From Myxococcales bacterium (GTDB lineage: Bacteria; Myxococcota; Myxococcia; Myxococcales; JAKAPL01), in assembly GCA_021783235.1 (NCBI GenBank), contig JAJXUD010000050.1:1-34487 (forward strand): DNA of 34,487 nucleotides, in the 5' to 3' direction. Of this stretch, positions 3,983 to 20,205 are shown piece by piece (position 1 is the stretch's first letter; the number at the start of each line of letters is the position of its first letter). The notes under the pieces were generated by a model. It made no database searches and had not been told where the DNA came from. It saw only the letters and a list, made by a program, of their open reading frames with translations. Position numbers and translations under genes: made by a program.

Positions 3983-4603
3983 TCACGGCCGCTTCGTCAG
4001 GCGCGCGAAGAGCGCCTCGATCCGCTGCCGAATCTCCGGCGGAAACGAACGGCTGTGCGGCTCCGCGAGAGCGCACGTTCCCGCGACCGCGTTCACGAGG
4101 AGAAGCGCGTCGCACGAGGTCGGGATCTCGGCCTCGCGCGTGAGGAGGTGGTCGCGGATGGCGGCCTCGGCGGTGGACCAGACGCGCGGCCGCCGCCGGG
4201 GAGGGCAGACGATGCGGCCGCCGTCCCACCCCACGACGGCAGCGCAGCAGGCCTCCAGCGTCTCGCGCCCGTCCGCCGACGTCAGGAGCGTCGCCACCCC
4301 GTCCAACCGCACCCGATCGTAGCCGCTCGGCGAGCAGCTCTTCGGGAGAAACCCGGCTCGATCGAGAACGGGTGACGGCAGCATTCTCGCCGGCATTCCG
4401 TCGCGCAGGCGCGAGCCGGGCCTGGGCTCGGCGCGCATGCCCCCCGGCTCCGTCCAGATCGCCCAGACGCCCGGCGCGGCATCGCGGCCAAAGCGGAGGA
4501 ACGCCTCTCGGGCGACGGGGTCGGCCTCCACCTCGAGGCGCCGCGCGTGGTAGTCCCACAGGACCACGCCGCCGCCGGTCACGCGGCAGAGGGTGTACGG
4601 CAT
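3983..4603 (-). CDS. Diverged class IV aminotransferase-fold protein (PabC-like)
   Basis: The position after pabA and pabB suggests 4-amino-4-deoxychorismate lyase, which releases pyruvate to give p-aminobenzoate. The 206-aa protein keeps the fold's landmarks: LCRVTGGGV, then HARRL near 19-23, a lone Lys88 (LPKSC) where the PLP lysine belongs, then ETLEACCAAVV (114-124) and GGRIVCPP (128-135). The signature E-x-[ST]-x-x-N is degraded: Asn is replaced by Ala, and the LPGITR-type segment reads RVWSTAEA. It may be inactive, altered in substrate, or a poor lyase. Its start lies 25 bases inside pabB. Assignment rests on weak similarity plus context. Confidence 0.62.
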   Translation of the reverse strand: MPYTLCRVTGGGVVLWDYHARRLEVEADPVAREAFLRFGRDAAPGVWAIWTEPGGMRAEPRPGSRLRDGMPARMLPSPVLDRAGFLPKSCSPSGYDRVRLDGVATLLTSADGRETLEACCAAVVGWDGGRIVCPPRRRPRVWSTAEAAIRDHLLTREAEIPTSCDALLLVNAVAGTCALAEPHSRSFPPEIRQRIEALFARLTKRP

Positions 4604-13862: not shown

Positions 13863-16800
13863 TCACCCCTCGATCTCGAGCAGCGCCACCGGGAACCGGC
13901 CCAAGAGCTCGGCGAGCCGAAGGACCGGCCTCCCGTCCCGGCGCCGCACGGCCACCGGCGCGCCCGTGAAGAGCTCGCCGCCCGACGCCGCGGTCAGCCG
14001 CTCGGGAAGCTCGAGCGCGGTGTCGCCCCAGCTCTCCTCGGGGTCGAGCCGCCGCCCCTCCGAGTCGAGGAGCCCCGCCCAGAGCCGCGGCGCCACCGCG
14101 ACCAGCGTCCGGCCGGCCCGCGAGCGGGCGAAGGCGACGAGCCGATCGGCCCGCGCCCCGGTGGCGGCGAGCGGCTGGTAGTCGCCGCGCCGCAGGGGCG
14201 AGGTGGCCACCCCGAGCTCGCGCAGCGACAGGTAGGTGACGTAGAGCTTGAGGCGCGGATCCTCGGGGCTCGCCGCGAGCTCGGAGGCGAGCCGGCCGCG
14301 CCGGCTCGGCCGGTCGGCCCCCCGCTCGCGCAGGTCGCTGAGCAGCCGCTCCCGGAGCGCGAAGTCGACGGGGCGCCGGTTGTCGGGATCGACGAGCGAG
14401 AAGTCCCAGAGCTCGTTGCCCTGGTAGAAGTCCGGCACCCCGGGCGAGGCCACCTTGAGGACGATCTGCGAGAGCGAGGTGTAGAGCCCCACCCGGGCGA
14501 GCCGCCGCTCGAAGGGGAGGAGGTCGTCCAGGAAGGCGTTCTGCTCGATCGGGGGCGGGCGCGCCGGCAGCGCCCGGCGGACGAAGTCGCGCAGCGCCGC
14601 CTCGTAGGCGAGGTCGGGGTTCACCCAGCTCGTGTTCACCTTCGCCTCGCGGGCGGCCTTCTGCGCGTAGGCCTCGAGCCGGCCGAGCAGCGCCTCCCAC
14701 GACGCCTCCGAGATCTCGCCGAGCGGCCAGACGCCGAGGAGCGTCTGGTAGAAGAGCAGCCGGTCGGTCGGATCGGGCGCGAGGCGGCCGTCTTCGAGCT
14801 CGGTCTCGAGCGAGCGGTGGAGCGTGGTCCAGCGCTCGAGGTGCCGCTCCCACTCGTGCGGCAGCTCGGAGAGCGCGTAGAGCCGCGCCCGGACGTCCTC
14901 GCTCCGCTTCGTGTCGTGGGTCGAGGTCGCGAGCAACGAGTGCGGCCAGCGCGCCGCCCGCTCGTGGTTCTGCGCGTGGAAGCTCTGCGGCGACCGGCCG
15001 AAGCGCTCGGGCTCGCCCCCCACCTCGTTCTGCGCCACGAGCCGGCAGTAGACGTAGAAGGCGGTGTCCTCGACCCCCTTCGCCATCACCGGCCCGGTGA
15101 GCTGCTGGAGCCGGAGCGCGAAGGCGAAGCGCTCGGCCCGCTCGGCGGGCGGCACCTCCGCGCCCCCGGGCACGAGCAGGCTCTCGATGAAGTCGTAGAT
15201 CGACGGGCTCGCGGTGGGGTCGCGCCGCTTCGCCCGCTCCACGGCCCAGCGCAGGTAGCGCCGGTCGCCCGGGTCCATCCAGTCGCCGCGGCCCTCGGCC
15301 TCCGCCCGCCGGCCGCTCGGGCCGGCCTCCTCCGGCCCGAGCTCGCCCTCGCGCAGGTAGGTCCGGTAGACGGGGAAGCAGGCGAGCAGCTCGACGAGCG
15401 CGCGGGTGAGGCTGCGCAGGGTGAAGTCGCGCGTCCGCCGGTCGTGCTCGGAGAGCCGGTTCAGGCGGCGGGCGAGCACGTTGATCTCGCTCGCCATGGT
15501 GGAGCCCAGGATCCGCTTCTTCGCCTGGTAGACGAGCTCGTCGTAGTCGACCGCGCGGCCGACCGCGCGCTCGTAGATCCGGCTGAACGCGGCCTCGTTC
15601 TCCGGCGCCACGAAGAGGCCGCCGAGCGCGTTCGAGAACTCGTAGCCCGTGGTGCCGTGGATCGCCCAGGAGGGCGGGATCCGCTCGCGGCCGGTCAGGA
15701 TCTTCTCGGCCACGACGTAGAGCGGCCGAAAGAGCGGCGAGCTGGGATCGCGCGCCACCTCCGCCGCGAAGCGCCGCTCGAGCTCGGGCTCGAGATCGGC
15801 GAAGGCCTCGACCGGCTGCCCGAGCTCGCGGGCGACGCCTCGGGCGGTCGAGAGGGCGTAACCCAGCTGGAGCCGCCGGAAGTACTCGGTGGGATCGTAG
15901 AGGCCGTCCGGGTGGTCGATCCGCAGGCCGACGACGTTGCCGCGCCGGATCCGCTCGAAGACGCGCCGGTGCGCCTCCTCGAAGACGACCGGGTCCTCGA
16001 CGCGGATGGCGGCCAGGTCGTTGATGTCGAAGAAGCGCCGGTAGTTGATCTCCTCGCCGGCGACGCGCCAGTGGGCGAGCCGGTAGACCTGGGCGTCGAG
16101 CAGCGCGTCGAGCTCGTCGAAGCTGCGCGGATCGCCCGGCCGGCCGTTCAGCTCGGCGACGTTCTCCTCGATGAACGAGCGGACCCCGGGGCAGCGCTCG
16201 CAGAGCCGGGCGAGCCTGCGCTTGAGGACCTCCTTGTCGCGCTCCCGCTCGGCGCAGGGGCCGGGCTCGGTCTCGGTGGCGGGCGGCAGCTTGCCGAAGG
16301 CCGCCACCAGGCTGTCGAAGTCCTCGAGATCCTCCTTGGGGGCGGCGAGCCGATCGCGGCCCCGGCCGAGGATGCGCGGGTAGCTGCGCGGGTCGAGCGG
16401 CAGCCGCTGCTCCCAGTAGCGGACCTCGAAGGCGCCGGCCTCGTGGGAGAGCCGCAGCTCGCCCCGCTCGAGGACGAGGCCGTACTGGTCGCCGAGGATC
16501 GGCAAGAGCAGCCGGCCGTGCAGCTCGTCCTTGACCGGCTCCCAGTCGATGTCGAAGAAGCGCGCCGAAGGCGAGCTCTGGCCGCTCTCGAGGACGGCCG
16601 TCCAGAGCGCGTTCGAGAAGCCCACCCCCATGTGGTTCGGCACGACGTCGAGCAGCGCGCCGAGCCCCGCCCGGGAGAGCGCCTGCTCGAGCTCCTCGAG
16701 CTCCTCCTCGCCACCGATCTCCGGGTTGAGCCGCTGGTGGTCGACGACGTCGTAGCCGTGCCGGCTGCCGGGCATCGCCGCGAAGTAGGGCGAGAGGTAG

Positions 16801-16970
16801 ACGTCCGAGATCCCGAGCGCCGCGAGGTAGGGGACGAGCGCCGCGGCGTCCCGGAAGCGAAAGCCCGAGTGGAGCTGCAGCCGGTAGGTCGCGACCGGCC
16901 GGCGGCGATCGAGCAGGCGGCCGAGCGTCCGCTCGGCGATCTCGGCGACGATGGAGGGATCTCCCGGCAT
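13863..16970 (-). CDS. treY: Malto-oligosyltrehalose synthase (TreY)
   Basis: TreY is a GH13 enzyme that isomerises the reducing-end alpha-1,4 bond of maltodextrins to alpha,alpha-1,1, giving maltooligosyl trehalose for TreZ to release trehalose. From ATG 16970 it has 1035 aa. Motifs: TYRLQLHSGF (28-37), YLSPYF (58-63), GSRHGYDVVDH (68-78), DVVPNHMGV (108-116), GLRIDHPDG (348-356) with nucleophile Asp352, VVAEKILTG (419-427) with acid/base Glu422, and STHDTKRSEDVR with the third acidic residue. No ribosome site is clear. An in-frame TTG at 17036 would add 22 Arg-rich residues and looks less likely. No treZ or glycogen gene lies nearby. Confidence 0.92.
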   Translation of the reverse strand: MPGDPSIVAEIAERTLGRLLDRRRPVATYRLQLHSGFRFRDAAALVPYLAALGISDVYLSPYFAAMPGSRHGYDVVDHQRLNPEIGGEEELEELEQALSRAGLGALLDVVPNHMGVGFSNALWTAVLESGQSSPSARFFDIDWEPVKDELHGRLLLPILGDQYGLVLERGELRLSHEAGAFEVRYWEQRLPLDPRSYPRILGRGRDRLAAPKEDLEDFDSLVAAFGKLPPATETEPGPCAERERDKEVLKRRLARLCERCPGVRSFIEENVAELNGRPGDPRSFDELDALLDAQVYRLAHWRVAGEEINYRRFFDINDLAAIRVEDPVVFEEAHRRVFERIRRGNVVGLRIDHPDGLYDPTEYFRRLQLGYALSTARGVARELGQPVEAFADLEPELERRFAAEVARDPSSPLFRPLYVVAEKILTGRERIPPSWAIHGTTGYEFSNALGGLFVAPENEAAFSRIYERAVGRAVDYDELVYQAKKRILGSTMASEINVLARRLNRLSEHDRRTRDFTLRSLTRALVELLACFPVYRTYLREGELGPEEAGPSGRRAEAEGRGDWMDPGDRRYLRWAVERAKRRDPTASPSIYDFIESLLVPGGAEVPPAERAERFAFALRLQQLTGPVMAKGVEDTAFYVYCRLVAQNEVGGEPERFGRSPQSFHAQNHERAARWPHSLLATSTHDTKRSEDVRARLYALSELPHEWERHLERWTTLHRSLETELEDGRLAPDPTDRLLFYQTLLGVWPLGEISEASWEALLGRLEAYAQKAAREAKVNTSWVNPDLAYEAALRDFVRRALPARPPPIEQNAFLDDLLPFERRLARVGLYTSLSQIVLKVASPGVPDFYQGNELWDFSLVDPDNRRPVDFALRERLLSDLRERGADRPSRRGRLASELAASPEDPRLKLYVTYLSLRELGVATSPLRRGDYQPLAATGARADRLVAFARSRAGRTLVAVAPRLWAGLLDSEGRRLDPEESWGDTALELPERLTAASGGELFTGAPVAVRRRDGRPVLRLAELLGRFPVALLEIEG

Positions 16971-17226
16971 TCGCGTGAAACCCGCGGAGGGAAAGCTGGG
17001 GCGCGAGCGGCCCCGGCGGTAGGGCCGCGCCCCCAATCGATCGCCCTCGCGCAGTGCGAGCCGGGAAGGGCGTCTCTCGCAGCCGCGGACTACTACGCGC
17101 GTGCTCGAGCATCACCGCCTCGCGTGAAACCATCAGCTCGAGAGACTTGACGCGCACTTGTGATTGCAAAGCGACCTCTGCTCTGTCAGAAGTCTTCCCG
17201 TTCTGGCTTGCCTGTGAGGGGTGCTC
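16971..17226. other. Region between treY and the lipoprotein locus
   Basis: No convincing gene. It contains a 12-bp repeat TCGCGTGAAACC at 16971-16982 and 17120-17131, and a decayed copy of the 3' end of the DUF47 gene at 17072-17120. From about 17120 the DNA is visibly less GC-rich than the surrounding genes. TTGACG at 17147-17152 resembles a -35 box, but no good -10 follows at 17 bases. Confidence 0.55.
17072..17120 (-). pseudogene. Remnant copy of the DUF47 gene 3' end (left direct repeat)
   Basis: This segment aligns with 18551-18596, which is the 3' end of the DUF47 gene plus downstream bases. GTCTCTCGCAG is identical (17072-17082 and 18551-18561). The 19-base block TGCTCGAGCATCACCGCCT (17102-17120) differs at one base from 18578-18596. 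The stretch between has small indels. Read on the minus strand it encodes AVMLEHA, against AVMLKHA at the true C-terminus, but the stop is lost. It is a decayed duplicate, not a gene. Confidence 0.7.
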
Positions 17227-17298
17227 ATGAACCGCTGGCTTCTCGGCTGGATCTCGTTCTTTCTCAAACGCTTACGGCCTGAAGGGGCGCTGAAATGA
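17227..17298 (+). CDS. Possible 23-aa leader peptide
   Basis: ATG 17227 opens a 23-codon frame starting MNRWLLGWISFFLKRLR, a hydrophobic-plus-basic peptide. GAGGGG stands 6 bases before its ATG. Its TGA overlaps the ATG of the lipoprotein gene (ATGA), the same coupling used by real operon genes here. It may be a regulatory leader or simply a chance frame; codon use is not biased enough to decide. Confidence 0.35.
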   Translation: MNRWLLGWISFFLKRLRPEGALK

Positions 17299-18509
17299 CG
17301 CCGCGCCTCTTGGCCTCGCTGGGCCTTCTCGGATCCCTCGCCACGGCCTGCTGCTTCAGATCACTCCCTGCGTCGGACGGCGGCCTGCCGGGAGGCGGCA
17401 CCTCGAACGCCGCCGGCACGGGGACTTCCTCGGGGGGATCCACGGCTGGCGGATCCACAAGCGGCGGTTGCGCTCCGGACATGGGGACCTGCTGCGTTCC
17501 GGGCAACGGGGTGGGCTGCTGTAATCCATCCCAGGCAACCTGTTGCCTCACCACCGGAAAGGGGCAGGCGTGTGACTTGTTCCCCGATGGCGGTTCGACG
17601 TGCGGCCCAGGGGATTCGTGCGTCCCGGAGCCGACGTCCTTCCCCACTGGGCTATGCGAAGTCAATTGCTCCAGCCCCGCCAATACCTGCTTGGGAGCAG
17701 GCTATCCCGCCTGCACGATTTCCTCCGACGCCGGACTGACCACCTGCGTGAACGCAACCTACTCGGGGCTCCAGCCATTCGATCCGGGCTGGCCGAGCCA
17801 TGGCTGGGCAGTCGTCGGCACGGCACCCGACGGGCAGTGCGGCTGCGTCCAGGACTTCCCGCTCTACGAGTTCGCGCCCTGCCCGGGGCACGTGACCAAC
17901 TCCCAGAACCAGGCGGAGTGCGGCTGCCCGCTCCAGTGCGCCGGGCCGACGCCCTACGATCACTTCTGCGAGTTCCCCTGCCCGAATGGCGAGGACGACT
18001 GCCCCTGGAACGCGGATTGCGCCACCTACGCCGCCGGCAACAAGGCCTGCGCACCGAATCCCTGCACCGACGCCGGCACCGGCTGCGGCAACAGCCTCAA
18101 CCCGGGGACCTGCATGCCGATGTGGACCTACTCCGGCCCCTCGCTCTACTGCTTCGAGGGCGGCGCCTCGCTCGGCCACTGCAACCCCGATCCGTACTAC
18201 CCGCGAAAGGACCGCTCGTACGCCTGCCGGGCGGGCTACTACTGCCTCGCGACCGCGCCCGACGCCGGCAGTTGCACGCCGATCTGCGACCCGAACGCTC
18301 CAAACCCGAACGCGAACGGCTGCCCCGCCGGGACCCACTGCGGTGTCGTCTTCGACGGCGTCCCGACCTTCGGCGCCTGCGTCGCCTGCCTGCCGAGGCG
18401 CGCGCCCTGCCAGGCCAACGCCGACTGTTGCAGCGGCGACTGCGAGCCCGGCTGCAGCTTCGACTACTCCCAGGGCGGCTGGGGGCAAGGCTGCATGGAG
18501 TGCCGCTAG
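17295..18509 (+). CDS. Large Cys-rich lipoprotein
   Basis: This 404-aa protein has lipobox ATAC with Cys19 (followed by another Cys). A Gly/Ser/Thr linker spans about 29-58; the rest is a Cys-rich chain with many CxxC, CC and PDAG/TDAG motifs and a final QGCMECR. It resembles the disulphide-rich secreted proteins common in myxobacteria, with no catalytic motif. GAAGGGG lies 7-13 bases before the ATG. The 5' half uses more A/T-ending codons than neighbours, and the gene is flanked by direct repeats, both consistent with insertion or transfer. An 8-bp inverted repeat (CGAGGCGC, 18512-18541) follows the stop. Confidence 0.8.
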   Translation: MTPRLLASLGLLGSLATACCFRSLPASDGGLPGGGTSNAAGTGTSSGGSTAGGSTSGGCAPDMGTCCVPGNGVGCCNPSQATCCLTTGKGQACDLFPDGGSTCGPGDSCVPEPTSFPTGLCEVNCSSPANTCLGAGYPACTISSDAGLTTCVNATYSGLQPFDPGWPSHGWAVVGTAPDGQCGCVQDFPLYEFAPCPGHVTNSQNQAECGCPLQCAGPTPYDHFCEFPCPNGEDDCPWNADCATYAAGNKACAPNPCTDAGTGCGNSLNPGTCMPMWTYSGPSLYCFEGGASLGHCNPDPYYPRKDRSYACRAGYYCLATAPDAGSCTPICDPNAPNPNANGCPAGTHCGVVFDGVPTFGACVACLPRRAPCQANADCCSGDCEPGCSFDYSQGGWGQGCMECR

Positions 18510-18550
18510 AGCGAGGCGCGGCTGGCTGCGAGGGCGCCTCGGCCGCGGCC

Positions 18551-18596
18551 GTCTCTCGCAGAGCGGCCGACTACGCGTGCTTGAGCATCACCGCCT
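18551..18596. repeat. Right direct repeat at the DUF47 gene 3' end
   Basis: This is the intact partner of the remnant at 17072-17120. It covers the last codons and TAG stop (18571-18573) of the DUF47 gene and 20 bases beyond. The pair brackets about 1.43 kb that holds just the leader frame and Cys-rich lipoprotein gene. Confidence 0.7.
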
Positions 18597-19200
18597 GCAC
18601 GGCGTTCGCGACGTCCTCGCACTTGTCGGAGGCGATCTCGATCTTCTCGTAGATCTCCTTCCACTTGATGACGGCGATGGGGTCGTCCTTGCGGTCCTTC
18701 ATCAAATGCTTGAGGGCCTGGCGGAGCAGGTCGTCGCACTCGTTCTCGAGCCGGTTGATCTCGATGCAGTGCTGGTTGATCTCGGCGGCCTGCCGCAGGT
18801 TGCGCAGGTAGCCGACCGTGATCTTGACCTCCTGGCAGGCGCGCACGAGGACGTCGGCCATGGTCTTCATCGCGTCGGTCGGCCGATCGATCTCGTAGAG
18901 GTAGAGCCGGTTCGCGGTGGCGTCGATGTGGTCGAGCACGTCGTCGATGCCCGAGACGAGCCGGTGGATGTCCTCGCGCTCGAGCGGGGTCACGAAGGTC
19001 CGGTTCAGCCGATCGAGCGTCTCGTGGGTGATCCGGTCGCCCTCGTGCTCGAGCTCCTTGATGTGCCGCACCTTCTCCTCGACCCCGCTGAAGTCGCGGC
19101 AGAGGTCGGCGAGCGCCTCGGCGCCCACGAGGCTGTTCTCGGCGGCGCGCTCGAAGAGGTCGAAGAAGGTCTCGTCTCGGGGCAGCAATCGGAAGGCCAT
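18571..19200 (-). CDS. DUF47 (PhoU-like) partner of the Pit transporter
   Basis: The 209-aa all-helical protein belongs to the DUF47/YkaA family, which resembles PhoU and is usually encoded beside Pit transporters, where it is thought to modulate transport. Motifs: MAFRLLPRDETFFDLFE (1-17), KVRHIKELEHEGDRITHE (43-60) with the E/D-rich metal-binding pattern, and PLEREDIHRLVSGIDDVLD (about 72-90). The start is 15 bases after the pit stop and both are on the minus strand, so they form one operon. Its 3' end is duplicated at 17072-17120. Confidence 0.88.
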   Translation of the reverse strand: MAFRLLPRDETFFDLFERAAENSLVGAEALADLCRDFSGVEEKVRHIKELEHEGDRITHETLDRLNRTFVTPLEREDIHRLVSGIDDVLDHIDATANRLYLYEIDRPTDAMKTMADVLVRACQEVKITVGYLRNLRQAAEINQHCIEINRLENECDDLLRQALKHLMKDRKDDPIAVIKWKEIYEKIEIASDKCEDVANAVQAVMLKHA

Positions 19201-19215
19201 GCGGAACCTCGTGTC

Positions 19216-20205
19216 TCAGTGAAACAGCGCCGCGAGGGCGCGCTCGATCAGGAAGGCGAGCCCGGCGGCGGCGGGGAGCGTGAAGGCCCAGGCGGTGAGG
19301 ATGTCGAAGGTGACCCCCCACTTGACGGCCGAGAGCCGCTTCGTCGCGCCGACGCCCATGATGGTGGTCGTGATGACGTGGGTCGTCGAGACGGGGAAGC
19401 CCAGCTGGGCGGTGCCGAGGAGCACCACCGAGGCGGCGGTCTCGGCGGCGAAGCCGTCGATCGGGTCGAGCTTCACGAGCCGCATGCCGAGCGTCCGGAT
19501 GATCCGCTTGCCGCCGGTGAAGGTGCCCACCGCCATGGCGACCGCCGAGCCGAGCTTCACCCAGAGCGGCACGTAGAAGTGGTCGATCCGGCCCGAGGAG
19601 AAGAGCGCGAGCGCGATGATGCCCATGGTCTTCTGGGCGTCGTTCGAGCCGTGGGAGAAGGCCATCAGGCTCGCCGAGGCGGTCTGGAGGAGCCGGAAGC
19701 GCCGGTTCGCCGGGGCGGGGGCCTGGCGGCGGCAGATCCAGTAGAGGGCCACCGTGAGCGCGCCGCCCACGAAGAAGCCGATGAGGGGCGAGGTGAGGGT
19801 GGGGACGATGACCTTCCGGAAGATGTCGAACCAGCGCACCCCCACGGAGCCGGCGCGGGCGAGCACCGCGCCCACCATGCCGCCGACGAGGGCATGGGAC
19901 GAGGACGACGGCAGCCCGAACCACCAGGTGACGAGGTTCCAGCCGATGGCGCCGAGCAGCGCCGCCTCGACGACCGCCTGAGTCACCGCCGTCGAGTGGA
20001 CGATGCCCTGCCCCAGGGTGGCGGCGACCTGGGTGGAGACGAGCGCGCCGGCGAAGTTCAAGACGGCGGCGAGGACGAGGGCCACGGTCGGCGGCAGGGC
20101 CCGCGTCGAGATCGAGGTCGCGACGGCGTTGGCGGAGTCGTGGAAGCCGTTCGTGTAGTCGAACACGAGCGCGGTCGCGACGATGGCGAAGAGGCCGAGG
20201 AGCAT
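19216..20205 (-). CDS. pit: Low-affinity inorganic phosphate transporter (Pit)
   Basis: This 329-aa PHO4/Pit-family membrane protein imports metal-phosphate by proton (or sodium) symport. The two signature repeats are GFHDSANAVATSIST (20-34) and MAFSHGSNDAQKTMGI (near 190), each with the conserved Asn-Asp/Asp-Ser-Ala-Asn core. About ten hydrophobic segments are visible, and the second half of the fold shows GFPVSTTHVITTTIMG. It is divergent from pstS. The intergenic Pho box is oriented toward pstS, so Pit is probably not induced by PhoB. Confidence 0.92.
   Translation of the reverse strand: MLLGLFAIVATALVFDYTNGFHDSANAVATSISTRALPPTVALVLAAVLNFAGALVSTQVAATLGQGIVHSTAVTQAVVEAALLGAIGWNLVTWWFGLPSSSSHALVGGMVGAVLARAGSVGVRWFDIFRKVIVPTLTSPLIGFFVGGALTVALYWICRRQAPAPANRRFRLLQTASASLMAFSHGSNDAQKTMGIIALALFSSGRIDHFYVPLWVKLGSAVAMAVGTFTGGKRIIRTLGMRLVKLDPIDGFAAETAASVVLLGTAQLGFPVSTTHVITTTIMGVGATKRLSAVKWGVTFDILTAWAFTLPAAAGLAFLIERALAALFH

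Follow-up and report, generated by a model that had tools for sequence, protein, structure and literature searches.

Gene Content and Repeats of the Locus

The stretch of DNA analyzed here, which we call the window (34,487 nucleotides), is the entire contig C7 of an assembly of 4.58 Mb in 133 contigs. Many of its relatives have large genomes of high G+C content, and we take the lineage to be myxobacterium-like. A treY-like gene on the minus strand is followed by a gene for a Cys-rich lipoprotein on the plus strand and then, again on the minus strand, by a DUF47 gene, the gene of a PiT transporter and pst-like genes (Table 1). The lipoprotein gene is the sole gene of a segment bracketed by direct repeats. 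The DUF47 reading frame, which ends within the right repeat, is intact, and treY also looks intact. We mapped treY and DUF47 in 60 relatives, none of them of the same genus, and the two were adjacent in none of the genomes where both could be located.

Table 1. Features of the window around the bracketed lipoprotein gene.
Feature	Position	Strand	Remarks
treY-like gene (maltooligosyltrehalose synthase), left neighbour	13863..16970	-	alpha-amylase domain; sister-genus protein 63% identical
12-mer, original copy, directly upstream of the treY ATG	16971..16982	-	exact match to 17120-17131
Left repeat	17068..17120	-	fragment of the DUF47 3' end plus ~27 bp downstream; 85% identical to 18547-18596
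12-bp copy, probable duplication junction GGTTTCACGCG/AGGCGGTG	17120..17131	-	exact 12-mer match to 16971-16982
Bracketed segment (cargo)	17132..18546	.	neither terminal inverted repeats nor a recombinase
23-aa frame overlapping the lipoprotein start, probably no gene	17227..17298	+	not conserved in paralogs
Cys-rich lipoprotein gene, 404 aa, lipobox ..LATAC	17295..18509	+	one of five paralogs in the genome
Right repeat	18547..18596	-	functional DUF47 3' end (last 23 coding bases, 18574-18596, and stop) plus ~24-27 bp downstream
DUF47 / PhoU-like gene, partner of the PiT transporter	18571..19200	-	PF01865, E 1.7e-33
PiT-type phosphate transporter	19216..20205	-	PF01384, E 6e-92

The initial annotation had described 17072-17120 as an imperfect copy of the 3' end of the DUF47 gene, and this was borne out. 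The best alignment pairs 17068-17120 with 18547-18596 as direct repeats, with 45 of 53 columns identical (85%) and three gap columns; its local score of 63 compares with 34 at most for 2000 shuffled pairs. The two shared blocks noticed before (11 identical bases, and 19 with one mismatch) are present but really extend slightly further: GGgCGTCTCTCGCAG at 17068-17082 and 18547-18561, and CGCGTGCTcGAGCATCACCGCCT at 17098-17120 and 18574-18596, with 22 of 23 bases identical. The left repeat encodes AVMLEHA, the last seven codons of DUF47, but 2 nt inserted ahead of the former stop abolish it, so that this copy is a fragment of the gene. Since it also retains the sequence downstream of DUF47, the duplicated piece includes untranslated sequence. 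The repeat gave no hit resembling a terminator, its fold z values were -0.75 and +0.86, and a search against Rfam found nothing above the gathering score. By whole-genome blastn the repeat occurs only at its two sites in the window (second copy, E 3e-8), and thus it is not an element dispersed over many loci.

A second and shorter duplication adjoins the left repeat on the side of the lipoprotein gene: the sequence TCGCGTGAAACC at 17120-17131 is identical to the 12 bp directly upstream of treY. On the minus strand the joint reads GGTTTCACGCG/AGGCGGTGATGC, i.e., treY-upstream sequence and then the end of DUF47. This is the form expected from a tandem duplication running from the end of DUF47 to the start of treY, which makes it very probable, as judged from one genome, that the spacer between both genes underwent a local duplication. 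A random-sequence model reproduced the 12-bp match in 0 of 20000 simulations, a simple null applied to a match that had been noticed before testing. The repeat covers the DUF47 side of the spacer and the treY side is represented by 12 bp only, placed apart, so that the window does not clearly show one contiguous target as does the paralog C24a described below.

The Lipoprotein Gene and Its Paralogs

The lipoprotein is one of a family of five in this genome. Four good paralogs (51–60% identity) are found on contigs C43, C122 and C24, the latter holding two of them (C24a and C24b); at these identities no copy was identified as the donor of the window gene. When the phylum was searched (195 genomes, this one and 194 others), the two sister-genus genomes gave weak partial matches, two more genomes gave marginal ones, and the rest gave none. 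No family was matched in Pfam or NCBIfam and no significant match was obtained in the PDB; the AlphaFold model, with a mean pLDDT of 41, was set aside. No relatives were reported from the collections of phages, plasmids, viral contigs and genome contigs. The C-terminal part (18390-18506, CQANADCCSGDCEPGC) resembles the knottin type of cysteine spacing, and its match to a spider venom peptide profile was weak and non-significant (E 0.16).

Less GC-biased codons had been pointed out in this gene as a trait of the bracketed cargo. They are indeed seen in the first ~450 nt, where GC3 is 0.77, but the rest of the gene (0.93) is close to the value for the genes of the genome (0.95). The low-GC3 5' part is common to all five paralogs; it is therefore a family trait that says nothing about a recent arrival, and we rejected foreign codon usage as a sign of it. 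The possible leader frame fared similarly: a 23-aa frame exists mechanically, but none of the paralogs conserves it upstream. C43 and C24a have a short frame of their own just upstream, overlapping the start and ending in ..GASPVVHVFGLLHR and ..GANPVVHVYGLMGR, respectively. From inspection only, we interpret it as what remains of the 3' end of a beta-propeller gene once located upstream; an intact parent gene was looked for and not found. These beta-propeller-like 5' fragments look as if the genes had been copied with arbitrary end points.

Flank repeats were found in three of the five paralogs, the window gene, C24a and C43. The clearest case is C24a (L044 8242-9558), bracketed by L044 7839-8146 and 9828-10124 (308 and 297 bp, 94% identical). 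Here the repeat takes in 64 codons at the end of a UvrD-like helicase gene, then the spacer and the 5' part of the next gene, coding for an EGF-domain protein. Each of the two genes still has its complete copy beyond the bracket, and a contiguous target has thus been copied on both sides. The repeats flanking C43 derive from an adjacent repeat-rich gene (score 85), and at C122 and C24b no flank repeats were found (scores 24 and 25). Between the window and C24a repeats there is no common core, their score lying below the 95% level of the shuffles. Being unrelated at these two loci and absent from two others, the repeats are neither part of the lipoprotein unit nor the attachment site of one integrase. 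Repeat-rich genes at L042 5995-6993 and L044 13864-15045, with units such as VVKALIEGSRAAL and VVISLITTSRSLL, adjoin two of the lipoprotein paralogs.

Other Bracketed Genes in the Genome

Bracketing was also counted over many genes, at loci that were in part picked for holding paralogs. We compared the 500 bp at each side of 1164 genes, covering 1.5 Mb of the genome, and scored same-strand repeats with a score of at least 50. Sixteen genes were bracketed, and random pairing of left and right flanks gave none. Flank repeats were about fourfold more frequent around lipoprotein-like genes (6 of 136) than around the others (10 of 1028; Fisher p 0.007), in counts from which C24a is absent because automatic gene calling overlooked it. 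Samples of two relatives served as controls and neither rose clearly above its own null, although they were small (0.40 and 0.36 Mb) and one of the nulls was partly spoiled by a low-complexity locus. By a crude count of repeat clusters the genome is unexceptional (19 per Mb, where two relatives have 7.5 and 15 per Mb), and the excess shows only in the test done gene by gene.

The cargo of these loci is varied. On contig C30 (L156), repeats of 160 bp (2542-2701 and 4291-4450, 97% identical) surround a hipB / hipA-N / hipA-C operon; they span the gene ends of both neighbours and nearly coincide with the limits of the operon. On contig C10 (L081 14357-16872), a RelB/YafQ toxin-antitoxin pair stands between copies of the 3' end of a neighbour (169 bp, 99%), and an extra 86-bp piece from a transporter gene close by is attached there through a 6-bp overlap; the history of this locus is more complex. 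At L042, a repeat of 56 bp (98%) spanning two convergent gene ends lies around small Cys-rich lipoprotein-like frames, and at L073 a lipoprotein gene sits within a partly deleted duplication of a kinase. Comparison of the non-tRNA repeats (53, 56, 160 and 297/308 bp) revealed no common core, one pair, C24a and rel, scoring slightly above its shuffles.

Two further duplications were seen. An exact 44-bp copy of an internal stretch of aspS is located 1.9 kb upstream, past an exported-protein-like frame (L071 16517-16560 and 18427-18470). The other belongs to G013, a genome of the same order that consists of one contig: there, a 652-bp duplication of a csoR/copA end (L108 6891-7542 and 10174-10825) encloses small frames, one of them resembling a transposase fragment.

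The genome also contains repeats of an ordinary kind. Two tRNA-Arg genes (L042 11377-12341 and L144 17333-18828) have exact repeats of their 3' half, of 46 and 48 bp, around short, integrase-poor remnants that have a small membrane-protein frame in common; in the one at L144 there are also a fragment of an integrase and an HTH_17 (xis-like) gene. Such repeats are normal att scars, which look different from the repeats of the window and provide a local yardstick for them.

Origin of the Repeats

The scar in the window is real, not a product of chance nor, on present evidence, of a site-specific element, and we consider it a decayed member of a type of scar already described. Our preferred explanation, to which we would give an even chance, is that the repeats are the scar of an insertion-site duplication, formed when a copy of a lipoprotein gene specific to the lineage settled in the spacer between DUF47 and treY. 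We infer this insertion from the occupied site of one genome. The gene copy would have entered the spacer without a transposase and at no specific site, insertion and duplication being presumably a single event. The target may have been opened by a staggered break or paired nicks, then filled in and end-joined around a captured fragment; another option would be recombination with a small circle or an incoming fragment bearing a portion of the target. The extra end of DUF47 would later have decayed to the present 53 columns at 85% identity. The genome encodes a Ku gene, which permits an end-joining mechanism and does not show it. No staggered-break duplication in bacteria was found in the literature searched.

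What speaks for the insertion is that host sequence stands on both sides of the gene in a repeat much longer than the target duplications of transposons. Further points in its favour are the like arrangement at C24a, with sequence of another kind, and the excess of bracketed genes, which is greatest for those of lipoproteins. For the bracketed set as a whole, a gene-sized insertion duplicating 50–300 bp of target without a transposase is the most economical account.

Tandem duplication followed by loss is a serious and close rival, possible in our view though somewhat improbable. The lipoprotein gene would already have been located between DUF47 and treY, all the DNA between the end of DUF47 and the beginning of treY would have been duplicated in tandem, and the second lipoprotein copy then deleted, with the DUF47 fragment alone left behind. 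It stays close because of the 12-bp treY-upstream copy at the repeat edge, exactly where the junction of a tandem duplication is predicted; the junction GGTTTCACGCG/AGGCGGTG fits a lipoprotein gene inside the first tandem copy at least as well as it fits the insertion. L081 and L073 also have copies in which internal deletions and short microhomology occur. On the other hand, we found no remnant of a second lipoprotein copy in 16984-17067, and the repeats of C24a, L156 and L042, which cross the ends of both neighbours, are left unexplained without an insertion.

That the DUF47 3' end was the attachment site of a decayed integrative element, with the lipoprotein gene as leftover cargo, seems unlikely to us. 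The initial annotation had offered attL/attR as one reading of the duplicated gene ends and duplication followed by decay as the other, and it is the latter that is well supported. The target is indeed a gene 3' end, one side restores an intact DUF47, and the tRNA-Arg genes indicate that integrase-poor att scars, 100% identical over 46 and 48 bp, do occur in this genome. The window repeats, however, are only 85% identical and carry indels, they have no core in common with those of other bracketed paralogs, the segment is free of terminal inverted repeats, and two paralogs are not bracketed at all. The integrase had been noted as missing, and we also found no trace of integrase or xis in the segment: a genome search with PF00589 gave no match on contig C7, and no fragment was recognized in or near the window. 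Nor did the collections of phages, plasmids and viral contigs yield any reported relative of the lipoprotein. An insertion sequence or composite transposon is not indicated either, as inverted ends are lacking and the single gene of the segment falls in no Pfam family.

It is very improbable that the assembly joined in one contig two strain variants of which one has the lipoprotein gene and the other lacks it. With its 133 contigs the assembly resembles a metagenome bin, and the exact repeats of 44–48 bp found elsewhere in it could arise in such a way, but several substitutions and indels over 53 bp are too many for the strain variants of one bin, and the flanking duplication of G013 is comparable and occurs in a single contig. 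Chance similarity, which the numerous short repeats of high G+C sequence might suggest, is already refuted by the shuffled pairs.

Extending the insertion to the whole set leads to a wider proposal that we make tentatively and regard as rather doubtful: in this myxobacterium-like lineage, Cys-rich lipoprotein genes, together with toxin-antitoxin modules, would spread bare and recombinase-free, duplicating 50–300 bp of target, possibly when staggered breaks are end-joined and genomic fragments captured, and such spread would drive the expansion of surface lipoprotein families specific to the lineage. The movement and multiplication of single bacterial genes free of transposons and integrases is poorly documented. 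Insertion with long duplication of the target has so far been tied mainly to restriction-modification genes, with selfish behaviour invoked, and the same scar around lipoprotein genes suggests a general route of gene dispersal linked to repair. The interest rests on the enrichment of such repeats around lipoprotein genes and not on the single locus of the window. Flank repeats are a countable signature that is testable in finished genomes.

Comparison with Known Systems

Integrative elements at tRNA genes and cis-mobilizable elements can have attL and attR without an integrase. Like the window, they present cargo with direct copies of the 3' end of a gene on either side; in the window, the identity is lower, and there is neither trace of a recombinase nor a common core. 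Tandem duplication and random loss, known from the literature on mitochondrial gene order, predicts residual fragments of the duplicated neighbours, as found here, but no remnant of a second cargo is seen in the window.

The transposition of genes in Arabidopsis (Woodhouse et al., 2010; PMC2869330) offers a similar picture in a plant. There, single non-transposon genes of mobile families have host sequence repeated at their flanks, in one instance that of the 3' UTR of a neighbour, and the models considered are recombination or reinsertion by way of a circle, and target duplication. In that plant, donor and empty sites are known.

The closest parallel is the insertion with long target duplication, named by Nobusato et al. 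(2000, Gene 259:99-108) and, according to PMC1643837 and PMC3031569, reported for restriction-modification genes of Helicobacter pylori. As these sources portray it, one to a few genes are found between repeats of the host target, variable in length, and no transposase is involved, which is the situation of the window. Compared with the H. pylori cases so portrayed, the window repeat is older, as its 85% identity indicates. The cargo also differs, being here a lipoprotein gene and elsewhere in this genome lipoprotein-like genes or toxin-antitoxin modules, none of them restriction-modification genes.
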